Shown piece after piece: positions 1,926 to 27,495 of a DNA stretch of 37,082 nt. Under the pieces are notes generated by a model. The model did no database searches. It saw only the letters and a list, made by a program, of their open reading frames with translations, and was not told the origin of the DNA. Location: contig JAPLFI010000075.1 in the NCBI GenBank assembly GCA_026390755.1, positions 1 to 37,082 on the forward strand, given 5' to 3'. Every line of letters starts with the position of its first letter. Within the stretch, counting starts at the first letter, position 1. The DNA is from Ignavibacteriota bacterium. Lineage in GTDB: Bacteria > Bacteroidota > Ignavibacteria > Tepidaquicellales > Tepidaquicellaceae. A program made the position numbers and the translations under genes.

Positions 1926-2354
1926 GTGAAGGAATTCGAAGAATTTTTTAGGGTGCAAATATTCAGTCTGACTCCGAATATATGCCAGTTGATAAGAAAA
2001 ATGCTTGAAAAATACAATTTTAAGCATGATTGCATTCGAATTAATGAAGATATAATAAGCGATCCGAAAAAGTTCTGCAGTCAAAGAACTTTTTTAGATA
2101 GTCTCGATAGTTTAGTTGGGAAATTAGACTGTATAATACTTGATAAGGATATAGACAGTGCTGTAAAACAAATAATTGTAGAAAAATTCAACAAAACAGA
2201 CATTATTTGTTTGCCGTCTTTGAATGAACCAGAAATATTACCATATAAAAACGTAAAACATATATCCGAGCCATTCAGATTAAGCGAATTAGAAGAAGTT
2301 TTATTGGAATTATATAATAATAAGAAGAAGAGTGAAACTGATACTGATACCTAA
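1926..2354 (+). CDS. Divergent receiver-like domain protein
   Basis: This 142-residue protein has no clear family assignment, but its pattern matches a CheY-like receiver. An opening strand VQIFSLTPN is followed by a helix, a central strand DCIILDKDID places an aspartate where the phospho-acceptor would sit, and the end reads HISEPFRLSELEEVLLELY, like the K-P-F-x-x-x-x-L end of receivers but with Glu in place of the conserved Lys. The acidic pair near the N-terminus is missing (SLTPN). This suggests a pseudo-receiver or protein-interaction module. It starts with GTG and its last 23 bases overlap the first cytochrome gene, which implies translational coupling. A role in controlling the cytochrome operon is inference. 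Confidence 0.6.
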   Translation: MKEFEEFFRVQIFSLTPNICQLIRKMLEKYNFKHDCIRINEDIISDPKKFCSQRTFLDSLDSLVGKLDCIILDKDIDSAVKQIIVEKFNKTDIICLPSLNEPEILPYKNVKHISEPFRLSELEEVLLELYNNKKKSETDTDT

Positions 2355-4290
2355 GACAATACTTTTTAAGATTCTGCGATATAATAAAAGGATTGCGGCG
2401 TTTATTCTCATCGCGGCTTTTACAGCTATATTATTTCTGGTTCTCATGAATTCAGGGTTGATAAAGGCAAAAGGCTCAGACGATTGTCTTGTCTGTCATG
2501 ATGATAAAGATCTGACGATGGAAAAAAACGGAAAAAAGATTTCACTTTACATTAACGGAAAAGTTTATGGTAAATCAATTCATGGAAGCTTTGACTGTAA
2601 AGACTGTCACGAAGGATACAATCCTGAAGCAATGCCCCACAACCCCTCCAAAAAAGAAATTAATTGTCTTTCCTGTCACGACAACGTAAAATCATCTGCC
2701 GACAATGTACACAAGAACCAGAAGTGCAGTGCTTGTCACAATCCGCATGATACGAAGCCGGTAAAAAAAAGTTCTGCGAAAGACCAGACAAAAATAAATT
2801 CTGAAAACTGTCTCGGTTGTCACAAGAATAAAAATGTTCAGTCATACTTAAAAAGCGCTCATTCGAAAAAGAACGTCGGCTGCGAAGGCTGTCATAAGGG
2901 CGGACACGAAGTCAAAAAAATAAATAAAAACGACGCAACACAAATTTGCGGCAGATGCCACGGGAATCACCAGAAAGAATTCAATAACAGCATACACCAG
3001 ACAGTACTTAAAGAAGGCAACGCAAAGGCGCCTAACTGTGTTGACTGCCATGGTTCTCATAACATAATCGGCAGTAAGTTTTCAATTGAATCACAGTCCT
3101 GCCTGAAATGCCATCTTGATGAAAAACTCTTTCCCGGAGAAGAGCGCGGCTCGGCGAAGTTTGTATCGCAGTATAAAACCAGCATACACAGTTCGATTAT
3201 GAAAGACGGTAATCCTGCGGCGGGATGTTCGGACTGTCACGGAAACCATACGATAGAGGGCGGAGAAGTTCTGAGAGACAAGAGAAAAAGAATAACAGAA
3301 GCCTGCAATAAATGTCATCCGGGCGTGATGGATAAATACAAACATTCGGCACACGGAACGGAAATGCTGAAAAACAATCCGAAGGCGCCGATGTGCATGG
3401 ACTGTCACGGCGAACACGACATAAAAGCGACACTTTCATCCGATGAATTCTCAAAGATAAATCAGGTTGAAATGTGTCTGAAATGTCATCAGGATCAGAA
3501 ACTGCCTCATAAGAATTACAAGGGAGAGGAAGTGCTGATAAGCAATTACAAAGATAGTTATCACTACCGTGCCCTGAAAGAAGGCAAGACCAATGCGGCG
3601 ACCTGTTCGGACTGCCACGGAAGCCACGAAATGAAAAAATACGATGACCCTGCTTCGAAAATTTCAAAGCAGAATATTCAGCAGACATGCGGGCAATCCA
3701 ACTGCCACATAAAACAGCTCAGCGAATACGTCGGAAGTGTTCATGAAACAGCAATAAGAGAAAAAAATAATTATGATTCACCGAACTGCACGAACTGCCA
3801 CGGCAATCATCAGATTATGAAAAATAACGAAACCGGCAGTCAGCTTTCAAGCTCAAAGGGGCTTGTACAGCTCTGTTCAGGCTGTCATAATTCAGTAGAA
3901 TTAGTACGGAAATATAATCTTCCGACCGGTAGAATAAATTCATATAATGACAGTTTTCATGGTTTGGCGGTAAGGGGCGGCTCGAAAACGGCGGCTAACT
4001 GTGAAAGCTGTCACGGTTACCATAATGTAAGGAATTCAAAAGATTCGACTTCCTCAATCAACAAGAAGAATCTTCCGCAGACCTGCGGTAAATGCCATCC
4101 GGGCGCAAACGATGCATTTCTGAATACGGCAATACACGTAACAGATTTCAAGAACGAATCACCCTGGGTTTTCTGGACAACAAGGTTTTATATGATTATG
4201 ATAATAATGACAATCGGAGGAATGATTCTGCATAATATACTGGATCTCAGAAAAAAAGTTCAGGAAAAAAATGCGAAAAAAAATCATTAA
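2332..4290 (+). CDS. 19-heme membrane-anchored c-type cytochrome
   Basis: This 652-residue protein has an N-terminal membrane segment (about 20-40), a long periplasmic heme region (52-589) and a second membrane segment near the C-terminus (about 617-637). I count 18 CxxCH motifs plus one CX4CH (CGQSNCH), so 19 c-type hemes. Many are followed by G-x-H, giving repeated CxxCHGxH units as in cytochrome c3/doubleCXXCH proteins. The C-terminal anchor and the cytochrome b gene 24 bp downstream resemble the CbcL-type arrangement, where a multiheme domain is joined to a di-heme cytochrome b to oxidise menaquinol; here the two are separate genes. The GTG start at 2332 follows a GAAGAAGAG stretch inside the preceding gene. 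Confidence 0.92.
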   Translation: MKLILIPKTILFKILRYNKRIAAFILIAAFTAILFLVLMNSGLIKAKGSDDCLVCHDDKDLTMEKNGKKISLYINGKVYGKSIHGSFDCKDCHEGYNPEAMPHNPSKKEINCLSCHDNVKSSADNVHKNQKCSACHNPHDTKPVKKSSAKDQTKINSENCLGCHKNKNVQSYLKSAHSKKNVGCEGCHKGGHEVKKINKNDATQICGRCHGNHQKEFNNSIHQTVLKEGNAKAPNCVDCHGSHNIIGSKFSIESQSCLKCHLDEKLFPGEERGSAKFVSQYKTSIHSSIMKDGNPAAGCSDCHGNHTIEGGEVLRDKRKRITEACNKCHPGVMDKYKHSAHGTEMLKNNPKAPMCMDCHGEHDIKATLSSDEFSKINQVEMCLKCHQDQKLPHKNYKGEEVLISNYKDSYHYRALKEGKTNAATCSDCHGSHEMKKYDDPASKISKQNIQQTCGQSNCHIKQLSEYVGSVHETAIREKNNYDSPNCTNCHGNHQIMKNNETGSQLSSSKGLVQLCSGCHNSVELVRKYNLPTGRINSYNDSFHGLAVRGGSKTAANCESCHGYHNVRNSKDSTSSINKKNLPQTCGKCHPGANDAFLNTAIHVTDFKNESPWVFWTTRFYMIMIIMTIGGMILHNILDLRKKVQEKNAKKNH

Positions 4291-4314
4291 ACAAGAAAAG
4301 GTATCAAGCACAAT

Positions 4315-5085
4315 ATGTCTCAAAACACGCAGGAAGAAAAGTTTATAAGAATGACGCTGAATGAAAGAATTCAGCATTTATGTCTTCTGACTTCTTTCAT
4401 AACACTCGTAATTACGGGGTTCGCTTTGAAATTCCCCGAGGCTTTATGGGTGCAGTGGTCGCGCAGTCTGCTCGGTGAAGGTGCGTTTGAATTCAGAGGG
4501 ATACTTCACAGGATAGCGGCGGTGGTAATGGTGGCGGTATCAGTTTATCACCTGTTTTATATTTCTTTCACACCGAGGGGCAGAAAATTAGTCAGAGATT
4601 TATGGTTCGGGTTATCGGATATAACAGACTTAAAAAACAGTTTTTTGTATTTAATCGGAAGGACAACTGAGCGCCCGCTCTTCGGACGGTTCAGTTATAT
4701 AGAAAAAGCTGAATACTGGGCTGTAGTATGGGGTACGGTTGTAATGGGAATAACGGGCAGTTTACTTTGGTTTGTTGACATATTTCTCCCGGTAATTTCG
4801 AATTCCGGTATGGAAATATCAACTGCGATACATTATTACGAAGCCATACTTGCGAGTCTTGCAATTTTAGTCTGGCATTTCTATTTTATTATTTTCAATC
4901 CCGATGTTTACCCGATGAATAAAGCCTGGTTAACCGGTACGCTGACTCGGGAGGAAATGGAACACGAGCACCCGCTTGAGCTGGAAGAGATTGAGAAATC
5001 ACGCGAGGCAGAGGATTCCGGCACAGCAGAGCTTAAGAAAGTTCTGCCTGAGGATGATGAATCAACGGAAAACTATGAGAGTTAA
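4315..5085 (+). CDS. Di-heme cytochrome b (HydC/FdnI type) membrane subunit
   Basis: This 256-residue protein has four membrane segments (about 21-40, 63-83, 135-158, 174-194). Histidines inside or beside them, H21, H65, H79, H173 and H188, are placed as in hydrogenase/formate dehydrogenase gamma-type cytochromes b (PF01292 group), which carry two b hemes and exchange electrons with the quinone pool. The tail after about 215 is acidic and probably disordered. It follows the 19-heme gene by 24 bp and precedes the NapC/NirT-like gene by 49 bp, so it most likely forms the quinone-facing part of a cytochrome bc-type complex. Direction of electron flow cannot be read from sequence. Confidence 0.88.
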   Translation: MSQNTQEEKFIRMTLNERIQHLCLLTSFITLVITGFALKFPEALWVQWSRSLLGEGAFEFRGILHRIAAVVMVAVSVYHLFYISFTPRGRKLVRDLWFGLSDITDLKNSFLYLIGRTTERPLFGRFSYIEKAEYWAVVWGTVVMGITGSLLWFVDIFLPVISNSGMEISTAIHYYEAILASLAILVWHFYFIIFNPDVYPMNKAWLTGTLTREEMEHEHPLELEEIEKSREAEDSGTAELKKVLPEDDESTENYES

Positions 5086-5100
5086 AACTATAAGAGCTAA
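5071..5100. repeat. 15-bp tandem duplication across a stop codon
   Basis: AACTATGAGAGTTAA (5071-5085) is followed directly by AACTATAAGAGCTAA (5086-5100), differing at two positions. The first copy encodes the last four codons and the stop of the cytochrome b gene; the second lies in the 49-bp spacer. It is a local duplication with no evident function. Confidence 0.6.
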
Positions 5101-5134
5101 GAAATAACAATTTAGTACAATAAATCACAAAGGT

Positions 5135-7228
5135 ATGGAAACAAAAAAGTTCGGCGAAAGCACAGAAAATAAAGCAGGTTCAGTTAATACAGAAGACGAT
5201 ACAATTATTATCAAGAGAAAGAAAAGAAGGTTTTTTAAAAAAGTCAGAGGATTCAGAAGATTTCTGCTTTTTTTTGGTATCTGGTTTTTTGTAGCTATAG
5301 TCTTCCTTGCGGCTTCTGCGGAATATACTTCAAGACCGGGTTTTTGTCCTACCTGTCACTATATGGAACCTTTTTACCAAAGCTGGAAGACATCATCACA
5401 TAATAAAATTAATTGCGTGGAATGTCATTTTGAGCCTGGACTTTCAGGTAAGATAAAAGGAAAAATGAATGGTTTGGTACAGATAGTAAGTTATGTTTCA
5501 AGGTCTTACAAAAAAAGAAAACCATGGGCAGACATTCCGGATAATACATGTTCGAAATCCGGATGTCATGACAGGCAAGCTTCTAACGATACGACTTATG
5601 ATTTCGGTGGGATTTCTTTCAGTCATAAGAATCATCTTACGGGGCAAAAAAGGGGGAAAACACTGAAGTGTACGAGCTGTCACTCTCAGATTGTGCAGGG
5701 TTCTCACATACAGGTTACAACCACAACATGTTTTAACTGTCACTTTAAAAAGTCTGATGACCCTGAACATAAATATGATAAACTTACAGAATGCACAAAA
5801 TGCCACGATTGGAAACACAAGACGGAGGAGCAATTAGCAAGCCTGAGGTACAATCACAATATTGTCGTTAAAAATGATATTCAGTGTAATAGTTGTCATA
5901 ATAAAGTTATATCCGGAAACGGCGATGTGGGAAAAGAAAGATGTTACCAGTGCCATTTTGAAAATGAGAGAATTGACAAATACGACGATACAGAATTTAT
6001 ACACAGCACGCATATAGTGAAACATTCGGTATCTTGTTTGATGTGCCACTCGCCCATAAAACACAAAATCGAAAAAATTGATCCGAACGCACCGCCTGAT
6101 TGCGTCAGTTGTCATACGAATGCCCACTCTTCGCAGGTTAATTTATACTCAGGCGAGAACGGGTTTAATGTGGAAAAAATGCCGAGCTCGATGTACCTGA
6201 GCGGAATTAACTGCAAAGGATGCCACACATTTCACGAACTTGACAAGAGGAATATCACTACTGATAAAGCAGAAAAAAAATCCTGTGATAAATGCCACGG
6301 TGAAGGATACGGAAATCTTGTAAAGCAATGGGAAACTTCATCGGTTAAGAGACTCGGAACGATTAAATCAATTTATAACACCGCAAAAATAATTGTGAAC
6401 GCAACTAAGAGCGATAAGAAAACCGAAGCGCTTCAGAAACTCAATGAAGCCGAGCATAACATCAAAATAGTTGAAATAGGCAAAAGTGTTCATAATGTAC
6501 AGTTCGCCGACAAACTTCTTATAGGAAGTTACGGGCTGATGAATCAGGCGTTAACGCTTATAGGTTCGGCGAAGAAACTTCCGGAATTCAAGTCGAGTTC
6601 GGAATATATACCGAATGAATGTTATAACTGTCACTCCGGAATTCAGGATATTACGGTAAAGAAGTTTAACATGAACTTTTCTCATAACCGGCATATCGCT
6701 AAGGAAAAAATTGAATGCACGAAGTGCCACTCGAACGCAAATAAGCACGGGGAATTAATAATTACAAAAGAAAACTGCAATAACTGCCACCATTCACAGG
6801 CAAAGACAAACGACGTGTGCAATAAATGCCACCCGTTCCAGGTTCAGGTTTTTAACGGTAATTTCATGAATAAAAACACGCCCGATATGATGAAAGCAGG
6901 AGGAGTCGGATGCGTTGACTGTCACCTGTCGAACGATAAAGTACTGAAACCGGACAGTAAGATTTGCGCTAAATGTCACGATGCCGATTACGAAAAAATG
7001 ACAGGTGAGTGGAAAAACGATATAAAGAATCTTACGGGTGCTATTAACAGTGAAATATCAAAGATGAACACAGCAAATTTGAGCGATGACCAGAAAAACG
7101 AAGTGGCGGAAGCGAAGAAACTTCTTGTGAAAATTAATTCAGCTCCGAGTATTTACGTTCACAATTACGGACTGGTTTCTGATCTTTTATCGGAGAAGAA
7201 ATCAAAAATGAGCAAACTGAACAAGTAA
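5135..7228 (+). CDS. 18-heme NapC/NirT-type membrane cytochrome
   Basis: This 697-residue protein has a basic N-terminus, one membrane anchor (about 43-61) and then CPTCHYMEPFYQSW and CVECHFEPG, the opening of NapC/NirT-family quinol dehydrogenases. In total there are 17 CxxCH motifs and one CX4CH (CSKSGCH). A heme-free stretch of about 110 residues after the twelfth motif separates two heme-rich blocks, and the last 75 residues are heme-free and helical. NapC/NirT proteins usually have four or five hemes, so this looks like a NapC-type head fused to long multiheme extensions that could carry electrons further into the periplasm. ATG with a nearby AAAGG supports the start. Confidence 0.92.
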   Translation: METKKFGESTENKAGSVNTEDDTIIIKRKKRRFFKKVRGFRRFLLFFGIWFFVAIVFLAASAEYTSRPGFCPTCHYMEPFYQSWKTSSHNKINCVECHFEPGLSGKIKGKMNGLVQIVSYVSRSYKKRKPWADIPDNTCSKSGCHDRQASNDTTYDFGGISFSHKNHLTGQKRGKTLKCTSCHSQIVQGSHIQVTTTTCFNCHFKKSDDPEHKYDKLTECTKCHDWKHKTEEQLASLRYNHNIVVKNDIQCNSCHNKVISGNGDVGKERCYQCHFENERIDKYDDTEFIHSTHIVKHSVSCLMCHSPIKHKIEKIDPNAPPDCVSCHTNAHSSQVNLYSGENGFNVEKMPSSMYLSGINCKGCHTFHELDKRNITTDKAEKKSCDKCHGEGYGNLVKQWETSSVKRLGTIKSIYNTAKIIVNATKSDKKTEALQKLNEAEHNIKIVEIGKSVHNVQFADKLLIGSYGLMNQALTLIGSAKKLPEFKSSSEYIPNECYNCHSGIQDITVKKFNMNFSHNRHIAKEKIECTKCHSNANKHGELIITKENCNNCHHSQAKTNDVCNKCHPFQVQVFNGNFMNKNTPDMMKAGGVGCVDCHLSNDKVLKPDSKICAKCHDADYEKMTGEWKNDIKNLTGAINSEISKMNTANLSDDQKNEVAEAKKLLVKINSAPSIYVHNYGLVSDLLSEKKSKMSKLNK

Positions 7229-7383
7229 TATTTTTGTTGCAGGATAAAAGTAAATTTAATACGGTCGGTAATTCAGTTTAGAAAAAATGAAAGATAAAAA
7301 CATACAGATTATTTAAATTAATATTTTGATATTTAAAAGTAAAATCATTACTTTTCACTAAACCTTAAACTAAAAGAAAACTT

Positions 7384-7944
7384 ATGAAAAAAAATGTATT
7401 CGTAACGGCTTCAGTAGCTGTTTGTGCAGTACTTTTCTTTGTGTTATTTTCTTCGACAATTCAGTCGCACAGCGCGGGTGACTTCAAGTATGTCGGCGTA
7501 AGCAAATGCGTCACGTGTCATAAATCCGATGCGGCAGGTAAACAACTCGACATCTGGCAGAACTCAGCCCATGCAAAAGCATGGAAAACACTGGAATCAG
7601 AAGCTGCCGATAAGATTGCAAAGGACAAGGGATTCAGCACGAAAGCATCCGAAACACCGGCTTGCATAAAATGTCACGTTCTTGGAAAAGACATCAATCC
7701 CGCAGAACTTACAGATTCCTTTGATAAGGCACAGGGCGTGCAATGCGAAAGCTGTCACGGCGCCGGTTCCGAGTATAAAGCTATGTCAATCATGAAAGAC
7801 AAACCGAAAGCCATTGAAAACGGACTAATTGTTCCGTCGGACATAGCCTCTTTATGCACAGGATGCCACAATTCCGAAAGTCCGACGGCGAAGCCGTTCA
7901 ATTTCGACGAAATGTGGGCGAAAATTAAACACGCAAAACCGTAA
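7384..7944 (+). CDS. Tetraheme cytochrome c554-like periplasmic protein
   Basis: This 186-residue protein has a signal peptide (about 1-30) and four CxxCH motifs: CVTCH (42), CIKCH (94), CESCH (121) and CTGCH (158). The spacing, the conserved W-x-x-S-x-H-A after the first motif and CESCHGAGSEY resemble the cytochrome c554 family (PF13435). Such proteins shuttle electrons in the periplasm. A 155-bp AT-rich gap precedes it, long enough for its own promoter, and its 3' side is occupied by a repeat element. It is probably the soluble link between the inner-membrane and outer-membrane components; that role is inferred from position. Confidence 0.88.
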   Translation: MKKNVFVTASVAVCAVLFFVLFSSTIQSHSAGDFKYVGVSKCVTCHKSDAAGKQLDIWQNSAHAKAWKTLESEAADKIAKDKGFSTKASETPACIKCHVLGKDINPAELTDSFDKAQGVQCESCHGAGSEYKAMSIMKDKPKAIENGLIVPSDIASLCTGCHNSESPTAKPFNFDEMWAKIKHAKP

Positions 7945-8056
7945 GTTAAGTGTTAAAAGTTAAGTGTTAAGTGTTAAAAGTTGAATGTTAAGTGTAAATA
8001 TTTAACATTTGAAATATAACATTTAACATTTGACATTTGAAATAAGTGTTAAGTGA
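7945..8056. repeat. Heptamer-type GTTAAGT/AACATTT repeat, copy 2
   Basis: Starting at the stop of the tetraheme gene, the gap is filled with GTTAAGT-type units (about six, some as GTTAAAA), then AATATTTAACATTTGAAA, two or three CATTTAA/CATTTGA units in the opposite sense, and AAATAAGTGTTAAGTG. It matches the element at 252-330 in block order. GTTAAGT is the reverse complement, by rotation, of the AACACTT unit found at 29381 and 35051. Confidence 0.75.
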
Positions 8057-8102
8057 GCGGAACTTTTTCAGGCAAACACAAATTTTAAAAAAAGTTTTTA
8101 TT

Positions 8103-8948
8103 ATGAAACATCTACGAATAATAGTTATAATATTTATCTTTGCTCTTACAGCATTGACGCAGAACTTTTTGCAGGCTCAGACGATAAATTTCAGATTCAG
8201 TACATATTTTTACAGCTGGCAAAGGCTTGATTCCTTAGTTTCAATATCAGGTACTGCTCCGACTTATACTACTCATCTCAGGGGTTACCAGAATCTTATG
8301 TTCGACGTTAACTATAAAAAATGGACATTTACAACATTTACACAGGTTGACGAAGATGTAACAAACCGTGCAGGAAAAGGATTCAATTACAGATTGTACA
8401 ATATGATGATAAAGGGGAGTAATCTCTTCGATGCATTAGATTTGAAGCTTGGGAGGCAGTATGTTTCGGCGGGTTCCGGTAAAGGCACTATAGACGGTTT
8501 ATACTTAAAGTTAAAGCTGGGAAAGAACAAGGAATACCAGTTTATCGGTTACGGAGGATATTTATCCCCGCTCAGTTATGAATTTGAAAAATATTTACAG
8601 CTGAAAGAAAACTTTCTCGCAGGCGGGCAATTCCTTTATTACGGTGTAAAGGATCTTACGCTGGGATTAAGTTACGCGAATAAAAACAGAAAGAATCCGG
8701 ATTATTACGCTCTGAGGCCTGACAGTCTGTTCAACACAAGAACAGTACTGATAGAGACCGATTCAAAGGCAGATCAGGTTGCTGGCATTGACGCCAATTA
8801 CAGGTTAATGAAGAAACATAACCTGTACGGAAGAGGATATTTTGATGTCAACAGGAAGAAATTCATTCGGGGTGAATTCAACGGAAACTTTGAGCTTATG
8901 AAAAATCTGAGGTTATCTGCGGGTTACACATACCGCGACCGCAGATAA
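8103..8948 (+). CDS. Outer-membrane beta-barrel, N-terminal part (frameshifted gene)
   Basis: The ATG at 8103 begins a clear signal peptide ending near LQAQT (about 26 residues); an earlier in-frame ATG at 8046 lies inside the repeat and adds a tail before the signal, so I prefer 8103. The rest is a series of amphipathic strands with aromatic girdle residues (e.g. FSTYFYSW, YGRGYFDV), as in a porin-type barrel. The frame ends in TAA at 8946-8948 just after YTYRDRR. The neighbouring frame continues the barrel without a break, so this is the first two thirds of a protein of about 442 residues. Flanked by multiheme genes, it is a candidate porin sheath for an electron conduit, though shorter than MtrB-type barrels. 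Confidence 0.75.
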   Translation: MKHLRIIVIIFIFALTALTQNFLQAQTINFRFSTYFYSWQRLDSLVSISGTAPTYTTHLRGYQNLMFDVNYKKWTFTTFTQVDEDVTNRAGKGFNYRLYNMMIKGSNLFDALDLKLGRQYVSAGSGKGTIDGLYLKLKLGKNKEYQFIGYGGYLSPLSYEFEKYLQLKENFLAGGQFLYYGVKDLTLGLSYANKNRKNPDYYALRPDSLFNTRTVLIETDSKADQVAGIDANYRLMKKHNLYGRGYFDVNRKKFIRGEFNGNFELMKNLRLSAGYTYRDRR

Positions 8949-8959
8949 GTTACAATTCG

Positions 8960-9430
8960 ATGTTCTGGGTTTTCGAGCATAAGAAATATCAGGAAGTAGA
9001 AGGTGGGCTTGATTATATTACTAAATTTCTCGGATCAGATATTAATCTTTCGGGCAGAGTCGCTGATGTGCTTTATGACGGAGATCATTCGCTCAAGATA
9101 CAATTAGGCGCCGGTAATTCTATTTTCGGATTGTCATTTACGAAATACACGGGATATACGGGTGAAGCGGAGGGTATTTATGGTTATATTAACCATGAAC
9201 TCATTAAGACGAAACTTACTTTCTCGGCTAACCTGAACTACACTGGCTACAAACTCGGAAAGTATGATGATTCCAGAGCGACTGCTTTAGGCGGAATTCT
9301 GGGGTTAACATGGAGGCCTGACCCGCGCATATCTATTGACGGACAGGGACAGGTTTTAGTAAATGACGTTTATAAGTACGATACAAGGTTCCTTGTGGGA
9401 TTTAATTACTGGCTATTCTCAAAACTTTAA
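8960..9430 (+). pseudogene. Outer-membrane beta-barrel, C-terminal part (other frame)
   Basis: This frame encodes the rest of the barrel, with amphipathic strands such as LTFSANLNYTGYK and a C-terminal strand ending FLVGFNYWLFSKL, typical of outer-membrane proteins that close with an aromatic residue. The open frame extends upstream of the ATG at 8960 to at least 8942. One extra C in the CC at about 8939-8940 would join the frames as YRDPQISYNSMFWVF, a natural barrel sequence. There is no signal peptide or ribosome site of its own, so it is not an independent gene. Either the gene is truly broken or the assembly lost one base. Confidence 0.75.
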
Positions 9431-9496
9431 GAAGAGTAAGGGAAAAACAGAACTTTTTGGAATGACAAAAAATACAAAAAATATAACAGCGAAACA

Positions 9497-10762
9497 ATGA
9501 GACTAAAAAAGTTTTACATTCTGTTTTTAACCTGCGCTTTGCTTTTCATATCGCTCACTGCGTATATGACAAAGAGCAGGAGCTTAAAAAATATCTTCAC
9601 GCAGTCGCAAAACTTTTTTGTGGAGATTCAAAGCAATAAGGATGTGATAAAATTCAACCATGCACTGCACATAAAAGATGCGGGACTGACGTGTAAAGAC
9701 TGTCACGGAGCGGCGCTGGAATCAGGAAAAGCTACAGATAACCTGAATCCCAAAATGGAAAAATGCGCAAGCTGTCACGACGTAAAAGATCAGAAAGAAT
9801 GTAAACTTTGTCATTACGACGGTGTTTACAAAAGCCTTGGTTCATCCGGCAAAGAGCTGAATTTCTCTCACAAGTTCCACGTCGGAAAGAAGATGGAATG
9901 CACGACCTGCCATACCGGAATAGAAAAAGTGAAATACGCAGGTGAATCAGCGTCGGGTTTCCCGAAAATGGAATCCTGTTACACATGTCACGATTCAAAG
10001 ACGGCTGTGAATAACTGCGAAGCCTGTCATACGAATCTTACAAACCTGAAGCCCGTAAATCACCTGAATTCAAATTTCCTTAACGAGCATAAACTCGTTT
10101 ACGACGCTTCGACTGGGAGACAGAACGATAACTGCATGATGTGTCACTCGTCCTATTTCTGTGAAGCGTGTCATCAGCCGGTCAAATATCAGGGTGAAAA
10201 TACCCCGAAGAATTTTTATGCGCCTTATTACACAAAAGATTTTGCCACAAGGACGGACAGGGAGAACCTTCAGAAGCTGACAACCGTACACTCGTTGAAT
10301 TATCAGTTTACACACGGACTTGACGCAGGTCAAAAGAGCTTCGAATGTAAAAGCTGTCACGACCCGGTCCAGTTTTGCGCATCATGCCATCAAAACAGAG
10401 GAAACCTGCAGACAGGATTCGCACCCGGCAGTCACCTTCAGCCGAAATTTGTCACTTATGGTGTTAATACAGGCGGCGGGCTTCATGCGGAACTTGGCAG
10501 GAAAGATATAGAATCCTGCGAAAGTTGTCACAGCGTACAGGGGGGCGATCCTACCTGTGTTAAATGTCACATAGATAACGACGGAATAAAAGGAACTAAC
10601 CCAAAAACTCACGAAACAGGATTCATGAGAGATGAAAAAGGCAACTGGCACAATACTCAGGGATCTATTTGCTTCACTTGTCATGTTGACGCAAACGCAA
10701 GACCGACCGGAAATCCCGGTATAGGATTCTGCGGTTACTGTCACGGAAAATCAAGTAAATAA
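9497..10762 (+). CDS. 14-heme periplasmic c-type cytochrome
   Basis: This 421-residue protein has an N-terminal signal or anchor segment (about 6-23) and 14 CxxCH motifs, several in close pairs (for example CASCH...CKLCH and CMMCH...CEACH). Class III cytochrome c-like histidines (FNHALH, FSHKFH) precede some motifs and probably serve as distal ligands. Between the barrel gene and the surface lipoprotein gene, it is placed where an MtrA-like decaheme lies in porin-cytochrome clusters. I see no close match to MtrA itself, so equivalence is by position and heme content only. The lipoprotein gene follows by 11 bp. Confidence 0.9.
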   Translation: MRLKKFYILFLTCALLFISLTAYMTKSRSLKNIFTQSQNFFVEIQSNKDVIKFNHALHIKDAGLTCKDCHGAALESGKATDNLNPKMEKCASCHDVKDQKECKLCHYDGVYKSLGSSGKELNFSHKFHVGKKMECTTCHTGIEKVKYAGESASGFPKMESCYTCHDSKTAVNNCEACHTNLTNLKPVNHLNSNFLNEHKLVYDASTGRQNDNCMMCHSSYFCEACHQPVKYQGENTPKNFYAPYYTKDFATRTDRENLQKLTTVHSLNYQFTHGLDAGQKSFECKSCHDPVQFCASCHQNRGNLQTGFAPGSHLQPKFVTYGVNTGGGLHAELGRKDIESCESCHSVQGGDPTCVKCHIDNDGIKGTNPKTHETGFMRDEKGNWHNTQGSICFTCHVDANARPTGNPGIGFCGYCHGKSSK

Positions 10763-10773
10763 TTTAATTTAAT

Positions 10774-11604
10774 ATGAAAAAAATTCTAAGCTATTATTTA
10801 CCGGTCATAACGATTATAATGACATTCGTCTATGGCTGCAGCAAGATAGATAACAATGCCACAGTCGCTCCCGATTTCGGATTTCACGGTACGGGATGGA
10901 TAAACCCGGCGTCTGATAATTTTCACGGCGATGTAATATCTTCCGCGAACTGGGATATGAGCGGGTGTAAATCCTGCCACGGAAATGATTATAATGGCGG
11001 CAGTGCCGGCACATCATGTTACAACTGTCACCCTCAGGGACCTGAGGGGTGCAATACTTGCCACGGCAGCCCGCAATACACCTGGCCGCCTAAAGCCCTG
11101 AGCGGCAATACACTGTCTACACAGACGGGAGTTGGCGCACATGACGTACACATGTCGCCCGACTCATCAAAAAGGATCTCAGCCGGAGTTGCCTGCAGTG
11201 AATGTCATAAACCTGTTACATCATTCTCGGATACAAATCACATTTATAACGACAGTCTGAATATCGCGAGGGTAATCTTCGGAACACTTGCAAAAACCAG
11301 ATGGGGCAGTGGAGTAACGCCTAATCCTGTTTGGAACAGAACAACACAGACATGTTCAACTGCATATTGTCACGGTTATTTCAGGAACGGCAATCTGACT
11401 AACACTCCGACGTTTATAGATCCAAACAGCGGCAGATGCGGAACCTGTCACGGCAATCCATCAACGGGCGATCCAAGACCTGGTGGAAATCATCCTGATG
11501 AGGATGATTGCAATGAATGCCACGCAGCAGTAATTAATTCTTCTGGACAATTCATCAATAAATCACTCCACATAAACGGAAAAATTAATTTTCACGAGGA
11601 ATAA
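10774..11604 (+). CDS. 7-heme lipoprotein cytochrome, CX4CH/CxxCH type
   Basis: This 276-residue protein has a signal peptide ending in VYGC, making C22 the probable lipidated cysteine. Heme motifs are CKSCH, CYNCH, CNTCH, CSECH, CSTAYCH (CX4CH), CGTCH and CNECH, seven in all. The pair CSTAYCHG...CGTCHGNP fits the CxxxxCH/CxxCH repeat family first known from Geobacter outer-membrane cytochromes such as OmcB-like lipoproteins. It is therefore a good candidate for the outer, surface-exposed end of the electron pathway. It is the last gene before a strong terminator. Surface exposure cannot be decided from sequence alone. Confidence 0.88.
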   Translation: MKKILSYYLPVITIIMTFVYGCSKIDNNATVAPDFGFHGTGWINPASDNFHGDVISSANWDMSGCKSCHGNDYNGGSAGTSCYNCHPQGPEGCNTCHGSPQYTWPPKALSGNTLSTQTGVGAHDVHMSPDSSKRISAGVACSECHKPVTSFSDTNHIYNDSLNIARVIFGTLAKTRWGSGVTPNPVWNRTTQTCSTAYCHGYFRNGNLTNTPTFIDPNSGRCGTCHGNPSTGDPRPGGNHPDEDDCNECHAAVINSSGQFINKSLHINGKINFHEE

Positions 11605-24682: not shown

Positions 24683-26089
24683 TTAATAATGGCTGGTTGA
24701 ATCCCAGACAACTTTTTTCTGTGATATGGTATTCCTGTAAACGCTCATAGACCTTGCTATTGCAAAAAAGTTGACTACTGTATCAAGCGGCAGGCGGAAC
24801 AAACTGAAAAAGGCGTAATCCAGACCATACCAGTTATATGTAAAAATAAACCGGTGAGAAAGTCTCGAAACCATAAAAAGAAGATTAGCTATCATAAGGT
24901 ACCATAAAACCGAACTGTGTCCGACTAATGAATACATGTTGTAATATCCTAAGGCTTTCAGAACCAATGATACCGTCAAATAAACAAGCAGAATATTGGA
25001 TAGAAAAGCGCCGAAGAAGCTGAAGAATGACTTTCTGTCACGAAAGAGGAAATATTTTGTTGCAAGATTTCCTTTCCATTTATGCGCCGCCCAGTTCTGG
25101 AATACAATTCCCGCAACCCATCTTGAGCGCTGTTTAACGGATGACCAGAATTTGTTCGGAAAAAACTCGGCTGTTGCAATCCGCGAAGATTCGTCATGAT
25201 CGTCGAGTTTAACATTAAAAAACCCGGTTTTAAATCCGAGCTGATAAAACCTGAAACCAAGTTCATAGTCCTCTGTCAGGTTAACATCGTTGAAGAGCCC
25301 TGCTTTTTTTGCTTTAGGTCTCAGCATTATAGGTCCATGTTTTTGATTCAACCTTTTTTCCGAAATTTCCTCATCTTCATGAATTCTGTGAATAATCTCA
25401 TCTTCTGATTCATCAGTTGTCTCTTGCGGTAAAACGTAAGGAGAACTTTTTGGAGCATCCTGCTCTGAAGTACTGTCTTCTGTATCAATTGAAGAAAGTC
25501 CGTCTTTAATCTGATTGATTTGGTCATCAATCATTTCGAGCTTGTCTTTTACAATACTCTCGTCATGAATCTCCGATGTATTTTCAGTCTTTTCCTGATA
25601 AAAGGAATCGAAGAGCTGTTGAGGAAGATTGATTTCATTCTGCAAATCAGTATTTTCAGATTCATCCTTTCCTTTGTTTAGAAGAGCGTTTTCCGGTTCA
25701 GCAGAAAAGTCTCTTTCAGAATCGGATTCTTTTATATTTACGGCGAGATTCTCAAATCTCTGGTCGAATTCATCGAGCGATTTGAGTAATGACTCACTTT
25801 TTCTTTTTACGGCAGATTTGTCGTTATTAAATATAGTTTCGGAGGCAGAGGGAGCATCAAAAACAAGTGACTTTTCCGATTTTTCTTCGGCAATCTCTGA
25901 ATTTCTCATATCACCCGTCGTAATCATGTTTTCTTTTCCGGAAGGATCCTCAATAAGTTCTGTTGAGTCCGCATCCTGTTTGTTATATAATCGCTTAATC
26001 CTGTTCTCAATTTCTCTTATTTTATTTTCAATGTTTCCGGGTTTGCCTTTGTCTGATAAGTCTGCAGAACTATTTTTTATTGTGCTCAT
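24683..26089 (-). CDS. Disordered protein fused to the C-terminal half of a GT2 glycosyltransferase
   Basis: Residues 1-250 are acidic and Ser-rich, probably disordered, with a short helical motif at about 20-38 (IREIENRIKRLY) shared with the next two genes upstream. From about 255 the protein abruptly becomes the second half of a family-2 glycosyltransferase of the NfrB kind: TED at 272-274, QRSRW at 320-324 and three or four membrane helices (about 354-380, 393-410, 425-446). The first half, with the nucleotide-sugar site and DxD, is absent. TED and QxxRW are the acceptor/base motifs, so the remainder cannot be a complete enzyme by itself. It could work with a partner or be a non-catalytic relic. 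GAGGA precedes the ATG. Confidence 0.75.
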   Translation of the reverse strand: MSTIKNSSADLSDKGKPGNIENKIREIENRIKRLYNKQDADSTELIEDPSGKENMITTGDMRNSEIAEEKSEKSLVFDAPSASETIFNNDKSAVKRKSESLLKSLDEFDQRFENLAVNIKESDSERDFSAEPENALLNKGKDESENTDLQNEINLPQQLFDSFYQEKTENTSEIHDESIVKDKLEMIDDQINQIKDGLSSIDTEDSTSEQDAPKSSPYVLPQETTDESEDEIIHRIHEDEEISEKRLNQKHGPIMLRPKAKKAGLFNDVNLTEDYELGFRFYQLGFKTGFFNVKLDDHDESSRIATAEFFPNKFWSSVKQRSRWVAGIVFQNWAAHKWKGNLATKYFLFRDRKSFFSFFGAFLSNILLVYLTVSLVLKALGYYNMYSLVGHSSVLWYLMIANLLFMVSRLSHRFIFTYNWYGLDYAFFSLFRLPLDTVVNFFAIARSMSVYRNTISQKKVVWDSTSHY

Positions 26090-26135
26090 TCTAATTTTTC
26101 CTCTACTATAATAAACTATTAATTAAACCTTGCGG

Positions 26136-27242
26136 CTATTTTAAATTAAATTTAATAATATTCTGATTTGCTTCCTGAAGGGAAGGAAAATCGCTTATAA
26201 AAATTTTGTAAATATTCTCGGTGCCAACTTTTTCCGCAGAAAGCTTTATGTCTTTTCCTTCAAATTGTCCTGACTTCTTAAGACTCTGTAATCTGTATTC
26301 TGCTCCCTGTTCTGTTTTCCATGTTGATTCAAGAATTACGATTTTATCGTCAGCTCCGGCTAAATACAATGCATTATACCTGCTATTGAGATATCCTTTA
26401 TCAGTTTCTGTAACTCCGGAGGGCAGATCTTCTGAACTGCTGATGGAAGTACGTAAAGGGGGATTCTCTTTTTCTTTTGCGTTCAAATCGCTGAGGCTGA
26501 CTTGAAATCTTTCCTGGCTTGTTTTATTCTGACTTCTGAAATCCTTCGGCTCTGTGCTGTTTTTATAGATAAAAAATCCGACCGAACCAAGCACAACGAT
26601 TAAAAAAATTATCGTAAAAATTCTTATATTATTGGGGACGTGTTTTTTAGAGTTAGCAGAGCGATTATTCGTTAATCCCTGAAATGGATCGTCATGATAA
26701 TTTGTAGTGTTAAGATTTTCTAAATCCGCGTATCTTTGATTGTTCAAATTTAAATTTCTGTTTCTTTGATTGTTCAAATTTAAATTTCCGTTTCTTTGAT
26801 TGTTCAAAGCTAAATTTCCGTTTCTTTGATTGTTCATAGCAGAACTCCCATTCATTTGATTATTAAAAGCGGTACTTCCATTTTTTCCGTTATTTCTATT
26901 TGCAGGTTTATTTTGTCCGGACGGAGCGGTAAGTATCTTTTTTGATACTCTGTCTTCTGAATTTTCAAAATTATCAAAGTCTTCAATACTGCATATAACA
27001 TTATTGGAAGGTTTCGAAGGTTTTTGAATATGCTGATTTCTGTTTTCCGCAGAAGTGCTGAGATTTCTGTACTCTTGATTTCTGTTTACGCTCTGTGTAG
27101 CAGATTCTGCTTTTTCCAAAGAATTCATAAGAAGCGGGATTTGTTTTTCGCAAAGAAATTTAATCCTGTCTTCCAGCTCTTTTATCCTGCCGTCTATGAT
27201 TTCCGGTTTGTTTCTGTCTGATACGTATTTTGATGCACTCAT
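26136..27242 (-). CDS. SPOR-domain membrane protein with Asn-rich repeats
   Basis: This 368-residue protein has four parts. A helical motif lies at about 18-35 (IKELEDRIKFLC), also found in both neighbours. A long polar linker contains about five tandem 10-residue units of the type NNQRNGNLNL (about 120-175). There is one membrane helix at 205-226. The C-terminal domain (about 298-366) fits a SPOR fold, with KIVILESTW, EYRLQSLKKSG and YKIFISDFPSLQEA marking the two sequence halves. SPOR domains bind peptidoglycan denuded of stem peptides, often at division sites. The topology would be cytoplasmic N-terminus and periplasmic SPOR. AAAGGA precedes the ATG. Confidence 0.82.
   Translation of the reverse strand: MSASKYVSDRNKPEIIDGRIKELEDRIKFLCEKQIPLLMNSLEKAESATQSVNRNQEYRNLSTSAENRNQHIQKPSKPSNNVICSIEDFDNFENSEDRVSKKILTAPSGQNKPANRNNGKNGSTAFNNQMNGSSAMNNQRNGNLALNNQRNGNLNLNNQRNRNLNLNNQRYADLENLNTTNYHDDPFQGLTNNRSANSKKHVPNNIRIFTIIFLIVVLGSVGFFIYKNSTEPKDFRSQNKTSQERFQVSLSDLNAKEKENPPLRTSISSSEDLPSGVTETDKGYLNSRYNALYLAGADDKIVILESTWKTEQGAEYRLQSLKKSGQFEGKDIKLSAEKVGTENIYKIFISDFPSLQEANQNIIKFNLK
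26731..26880 (-). repeat. Five 30-bp tandem repeats inside the SPOR gene
   Basis: Five units of exactly 30 bp run from 26731 to 26880, each starting with a form of TTTCTTTGATTGTTCAAA on the plus strand. The units at 26731, 26761 and 26791 are nearly identical, the one at 26821 is weaker and the one at 26851 is clearly degenerate. They encode the 10-residue Asn-rich units in the linker of the SPOR protein, so expansion or loss of a unit keeps the frame. Confidence 0.92.
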
Positions 27243-27279
27243 TTTTTTAATCCTTTATAATAAATTGCTTTTTTTTGTG

Positions 27280-27495
27280 CTAACCCTTAAGGACAAGAAA
27301 TTGACGAATATCGCTCATCGAGTTAGCTTGTTTTATGTTACCAGCGTGTGATACAGAGTTTCCGTTAGTTGAAGCATTGACAAAGTGAGGAATTCTCATT
27401 TCATAGAGAAAGGTTAATCTATCCTCAATATTCTTTATTGTTTCGTAGATATTTTTACTTTTGTCAATTCCGTATGTTTTATTAGCTGTTATCAT
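27280..27495 (-). CDS. Small protein with the shared N-terminal helical motif
   Basis: This is a 71-residue frame that I do not recognise. Residues 15-36 (core IKNIEDRLTFLY, then EMRIPHF) match the N-terminal motif of the SPOR protein (IKELEDRIKFLC, then EKQIPLL) at the same distance from the start, and less closely that of the glycosyltransferase fusion. The remainder is polar and without clear structure. It lies 37 bp upstream of the SPOR gene on the same strand and is first in the group. The conserved motif argues that it is a real gene, possibly a shortened paralogue. Confidence 0.6.
   Translation of the reverse strand: MITANKTYGIDKSKNIYETIKNIEDRLTFLYEMRIPHFVNASTNGNSVSHAGNIKQANSMSDIRQFLVLKG

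Follow-up and report, generated by a model that had tools for sequence, protein, structure and literature searches.

To our knowledge, synthases of glycosyltransferase family 2 (GT2) of the cellulose, chitin and hyaluronan type are regarded as single catalytic chains. E. coli NfrB is a c-di-GMP-activated glycosyltransferase which has its MshEN domain in the same chain and depends on WecB, the proposed supplier of UDP-ManNAc (PMC8669469, PMC8669472), and in a survey of 1705 NfrB homologues all three motifs (DxD, TED and QxxRW) were found in each one (PMC8669469). Split glycosyltransferases are represented by the MurG-like Alg13/Alg14 and EpsE/EpsF (PMC4973528). There, as in the system described below, one glycosyltransferase is spread over two proteins, one being a membrane anchor. 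Alg13/Alg14 and EpsE/EpsF have the GT-B fold and are divided at the boundary between two domains, whereas here a GT2 (GT-A-type) domain is cut internally between DxD and TED. In other bacteria SPOR domains recognise the denuded glycan of the septum (PMC6895207). FtsN and RlpA combine a single transmembrane helix (TM) with a periplasmic SPOR-like fold, and so do the proteins considered here, in which, however, the SPOR part is joined to a half-glycosyltransferase in the cytoplasm or to a helical motif. A full-text search returned no description of a split GT2 enzyme, though the literature covered was limited and absence is thereby unproven.

The whole stretch of DNA analysed (the window) is contig JAPLFI010000075.1 of assembly GCA_026390755.1, positions 1 to 37,082; its genome, labelled G000, belongs to genus g1.

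NfrB-type synthase encoded by two genes

An NfrB-type processive GT2 synthase is divided over two adjacent genes in 14 genomes of the window genome's family, which represent eight genera. The window encodes a 468-residue protein (24683..26089, minus strand) composed of the helical motif, a coil extension and the C-half of the enzyme, the latter matching the NfrB models at approximately 253–470 and PF13632 at positions 85–195. Its GT2 part (24686..25345, minus strand) retains membrane helices, TED, the proposed catalytic base (25268..25276, minus strand), and QxxRW in the form QRSRW (25118..25132, minus strand). In relatives the missing N-half is encoded directly upstream of the C-half gene. 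It contains the first TM and HDAED (the DxD site); in most cases a second TM and a SPOR-like domain come next. TED, QxxRW and the C-terminal membrane helices are found in the C-half, where the coil extension with its motif comes before them. The break lies within the catalytic domain, between the segments GTGMGFHR and LTEDYELG, and the halves tile residues 1–246 and 253–470 of the NfrB models (NF008411, PRK11234). All 19 pairs examined follow the same pattern: HD[AS]ED without TED or QxxRW in the N-half, TED and QxxRW without HDxED in the C-half. Thus the “half glycosyltransferase” of the earlier sequence-only reading is a true half and belongs, as a subunit, to an NfrB-type synthase whose split state is conserved.

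The likeness to NfrB has its bounds. The E-values with NF008411 are 2.4e-56 for the N-half and 1.5e-39 for the C-half, both scores being below the curated equivalog cut-offs. In contrast to NfrB, the enzyme is made of two polypeptides cut through the catalytic domain, a SPOR-like tail and a coil extension are added at the break, and the C-half stops at model position 470 of 723, the C-terminal c-di-GMP-binding MshEN domain being absent. NfrB proteins have DxD, TED and QxxRW in a single polypeptide; the window holds TED and QxxRW alone. Pfam gives GT2 (PF13632, PF13641) instead of a MurG-like GT-B assignment. The main locus of relatives is arranged as a TPR outer-membrane-type gene, N-half, C-half and wecB, and may correspond to the NfrB system in the presence of wecB and of the adjacent gene for a candidate TPR partner. 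The wecB gene (TIGR00236, above cut-off) lies next to the split genes in the main locus of relatives and is also adjacent on contig C436 of G000, and both it and the TPR gene are absent from the window; the TPR protein beside the main locus matched no NfrA model. Searches of PDB sequences with each half gave no match, and an AlphaFold2 model of the read-through N/C pair of G007 (stops written as Q) had a mean pLDDT of 49.8, which is uninformative on assembly.

At the break an additional domain or extension belongs to each of the halves, and in many pairs the two frames differ; an intein or a programmed frameshift was therefore rejected as the explanation. Second split GT2 pairs were registered in g7 and g8 (L069, L072–L075, L122, L127); they lack the motif and mostly the SPOR domain, and apparently constitute a separate glycan system.

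Origin of the division

The enzyme is a single unsplit chain of about 444 residues in the 15 genomes of family f2 and of 485 residues in genus g16, where roughly 45 residues are inserted at the split site. A tree of the joined cores places all split pairs together, so that one change suffices (support 81/86; recovered in 80% of bootstrap trees), and since relatives outside this one clade are unsplit, the fission most probably occurred about once. Phylum-wide, NfrB-type N-halves were found in 5 of 395 genomes, three within the order and two outside it, both of the latter being unsplit. Numbers of N- and C-half loci in split genomes are equal, with the exception of the extra C-half in G000 and a 55-residue C-half fragment in G020.

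In six of the eight genera (g3, g4, g5, g8, g11 and g14) the C-half opens with DUF772 (PF05598), a transposase N-terminal domain, followed by the motif; in g7 and g1 (window) this domain is absent and the motif stands at the start. The domain is a clear homologue of that found in IS transposases, including the one encoded on contig C257 of G000, which matches the same DUF772 query, but here the DDE nuclease part is missing and the fusion partner is a glycosyltransferase half. DUF772 is present in those split lineages that branch off first, and an IS insertion or fusion would therefore be the simplest explanation of the fission. A recent insertion in G007 and G020 was rejected, because the site of DUF772 is shared by six of the eight genera and the domain has diverged; its identity to the g4 query is 21–37% outside g4 and g14. 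The C257 transposase (L138, 4404–5415) is encoded by two overlapping ORFs and gives the only strong DUF772 match in G000.

The shared helical motif and its distribution

The sequence-only reading described a common motif around residue 20 in the products of three consecutive minus-strand genes, and both the motif and the ORF positions were borne out. It starts at residue 24 of the 468-residue C-half protein (IREIENRIKRLY), at residue 20 of a 368-residue protein (IKELEDRIKFLC) and at residue 20 of a motif-only protein of 71 residues (IKNIEDRLTFLY; 27280..27495, minus strand). The motif is a 28-residue amphipathic helix of the type I-D-x-K-I-x-E-I-E-D-R-I-K-x-L-Y-E-K, with the consensus xxIDxKIxEIEDRIKxLYEKxxP in an alignment of 17 rows and 28 columns. 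Its copies in the window occupy 27373..27456 (KNIYETIKNIEDRLTFLYEMRIPHFVNA, profile E-value 8.3e-14), 27120..27203 (EIIDGRIKELEDRIKFLCEKQIPLLMNS, 3.4e-13) and 25958..26035 (NIENKIREIENRIKRLYNKQDADSTE, 2.1e-11), all on the minus strand. Best ungapped 22-residue scores among the three 60-residue N-termini were 61, 57 and 38 against a shuffle mean of 16–19, and were reached by 0, 0 and 2 shuffles per 1000, respectively. Of the K-x-x-x-I segment said to precede each copy, the isoleucine is kept while the lysine is not conserved (NSQSI in G028, for instance).

Hydrophobic columns 3, 7, 10, 14 and 17 of the motif have 4-3-4-3 spacing, and its helical moment peaks at 102 degrees, a value equalled by 1 of 2000 shuffles. 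Extensions of the C-halves contain from one to six heptad-like units (the maximum is in G002), and the motif is the best conserved of them; in the window a second unit, LEMIDDQINQIKDG, was recognised in the coil extension (25499..25540, minus strand). The six units of G002 lie in a 712-residue extension of a 924-residue C-half (L071, 7201–9975), and the corresponding N-half is without the TM-SPOR tail.

Among 44 genomes of the order the 28-column profile matched 14 at E ≤ 1e-9, everything else having E ≥ 1e-3. Matches fell in 14 of 14 genomes with the split synthase and in 0 of the 30 others. Because the profile was built from the same proteins it later recovered, the clean result is that the motif is absent elsewhere and that its occurrence coincides exactly with that of the split enzyme. 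The motif is therefore present beyond the window and conserved in orthologues, contrary to the outcome that would have refuted the sequence-only reading, but it accompanies the split NfrB-type system and not envelope proteins generally. In G000 it heads, besides the C-half, a TM-SPOR-like protein (two copies) and the 71-residue protein, which has orthologues of 69 residues in G006 and G028, there adjoining an rseP-like gene.

Seven of the 19 split pairs, all of them second copies, have no motif, so joining of the halves does not depend on it. Nor do motif and SPOR always occur together: in G002 the motif is present and the SPOR tail missing, while in G020b and G026c a SPOR-like tail is present and the motif missing. 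One can assume that the motif is a putative accessory docking element rather than the glue between halves. It might also be supposed that the extension is both a remnant and a spacer left by transposase-driven fission, its heptads keeping the linker soluble, and that other motif copies arose by duplication without any docking. The presence of DUF772 before the motif in six of the eight genera with the split, a piece resembling the DUF772 end (FDSFY) that recurs in the extension, and the second copies devoid of the motif agree with this supposition. We consider it quite unlikely, as conservation of the motif is far above that of the rest of the extension, and the motif is retained both where DUF772 is absent (g7, g1) and on two kinds of protein having no glycosyltransferase part.

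Motif-TM-SPOR protein

The 368-residue protein (26136..27242, minus strand) consists, according to the profile, hydropathy and the structure model, of the motif, a low-complexity linker, a TM and a SPOR-like domain. The TM (residues 208–226; 26565..26621, minus strand) was assigned from hydropathy, preceding basic residues and a helix in the model, and the N-terminus is predicted to be cytoplasmic, so the motif would be on the cytoplasmic side of the membrane. In the model, residues encoded by 26142..26342 (minus strand) adopt a beta-alpha-beta-beta-alpha arrangement with pLDDT of about 90, and the predicted fold is that of SPOR domains. The most probable Foldseek match in PDB was the SPOR domain of RlpA (6i05; probability 0.98, TM-score 0.67 by target, rmsd 2.2), with a weak E-value of 0.25. 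Ten of the 12 members of the tail family match PF05036 at E ≤ 1 (best 9e-5) and the window protein does not; a PDB profile search with the tail gave weak, apparently chance matches alone.

The N-half encoded at another locus of G000 has this tail too (E = 5e-44), which suggests that the window protein originated by exchange of the glycosyltransferase N-half for the motif. The parts following the motif, previously taken as unrelated among the three proteins, are thus linked to the split enzyme in the case of the SPOR protein, whose tail is a paralogue of the N-half tail. Its linker includes tandem NNQRNGN-type repeats (26750–26900); at the corresponding place the paralogue on contigs C15 and C436 has S-[KE]-D-[FL] repeats, and it is there that the assembly breaks.

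Extra copy in the window

One N-half (contig C15) and two C-halves (window and C436) were detected in G000. The ends of C15 and C436 also carry the motif-TM-SPOR paralogue, and the repeat common to both contig ends is the ground for assuming that they join. The window cluster is an extra copy with no N-half beside it. Its C-half shares 94% protein identity with that of C436, the GT2 parts differing by 73 synonymous and 18 nonsynonymous changes (dS 0.90, dN 0.036, dN/dS 0.04), which points to strong constraint on both copies. The C436 C-half has a one-base frame change between the motif and the glycosyltransferase part, which is either an error of the MAG or a real lesion; in the latter case the C-half of the window would be the intact one. 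When window flanks were compared over 44 genomes, a PMT-like gene was found in 4 and an aldehyde dehydrogenase in 12, and no conserved setting emerged.

A half enzyme with its active site broken may naively be read as a decayed or regulatory pseudoenzyme that makes no polymer, and the frameshift in C436 fits such a reading. It is very improbable, however, given that the catalytic motifs are all retained across both halves (19/19 pairs), that dN/dS is so low, that the operon with WecB is conserved and that a split of single origin was maintained across 8 genera. Even less credible is an artefact of assembly or binning, in which fragmented genes or a mixed MAG would mimic halves and the extra copy. 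It is true that G000 is composed of 628 contigs with 3.5% contamination, that C15 and C436 are 3-kb contigs and that the extra copy possibly came from a related strain. Against this, the ORFs are complete and bear additional domains where the enzyme is cut, the window cluster lies in the interior of its 37-kb contig, and the split is seen in 14 genomes, including long contigs (454 kb in G019, 1.17 Mb in G013, 541 kb in G010). This recurrence refutes an artefact as the source of the split itself.

Possible role of the motif

The motif is, on balance, probably a cytoplasmic coiled-coil docking helix of the split NfrB-type exopolysaccharide synthase. The idea of a docking or coiled-coil tag, put forward from the sequence alone, thus remains the best reading, still a putative one: it agrees with the 4-3-4-3 register, the heptad units and the likely cytoplasmic location, although the tag belongs to one enzyme system. 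The N- and C-halves would meet at the membrane and form one active site. Since the N-half tail enters the periplasm whereas the C-half begins in the cytoplasm, the presence of the TM-SPOR tail would make two chains topologically necessary. The motif may pair with itself or with like helices, thereby clustering C-halves, and in G000 it could tie them to motif-TM-SPOR adaptors, whose SPOR domains may be able to bind denuded septal peptidoglycan. Targeting to the division site by SPOR-like tails is predicted by analogy. The 71-residue protein might serve as a linker or a competitor, and the window cluster would supply a spare C-half and adaptors to the N-half encoded on C15.

Alternatively, the helix may not pair with itself but target its carriers to a single third partner, such as a protein of cell division or of the cytoskeleton, which would gather the different proteins at one site. 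Conserved polar positions of the profile beyond the heptad core (E9, E11, R13, Y18) and the existence of a motif-only protein of 69–71 residues in three genomes speak for such a partner; repeated heptad units in C-half extensions are better suited to self-association, and we regard a third partner as rather unlikely.

In a further, more tentative scenario, a transposon cut the GT2 synthase through its active site and the two pieces persisted as an enzyme gated by assembly. It would then be active only where the SPOR-tailed N-half meets the coil-tagged C-half, for example at the division site, and the adaptors, the small motif-only protein and the spare C-half of the window cluster might tune or relocate this assembly. 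A clade-wide natural division of GT2 between DxD and TED, accompanied by unsplit sisters and an insert-bearing relative, offers a ready system for studying gene fission, assembly of split enzymes and spatial control of exopolysaccharide synthesis.

Elsewhere in the window, positions 2332–11604 contain a large cluster of the multiheme (CxxCH) cytochrome type together with an ORF for a predicted outer-membrane porin-like protein, a composition suggestive of extracellular electron transfer.
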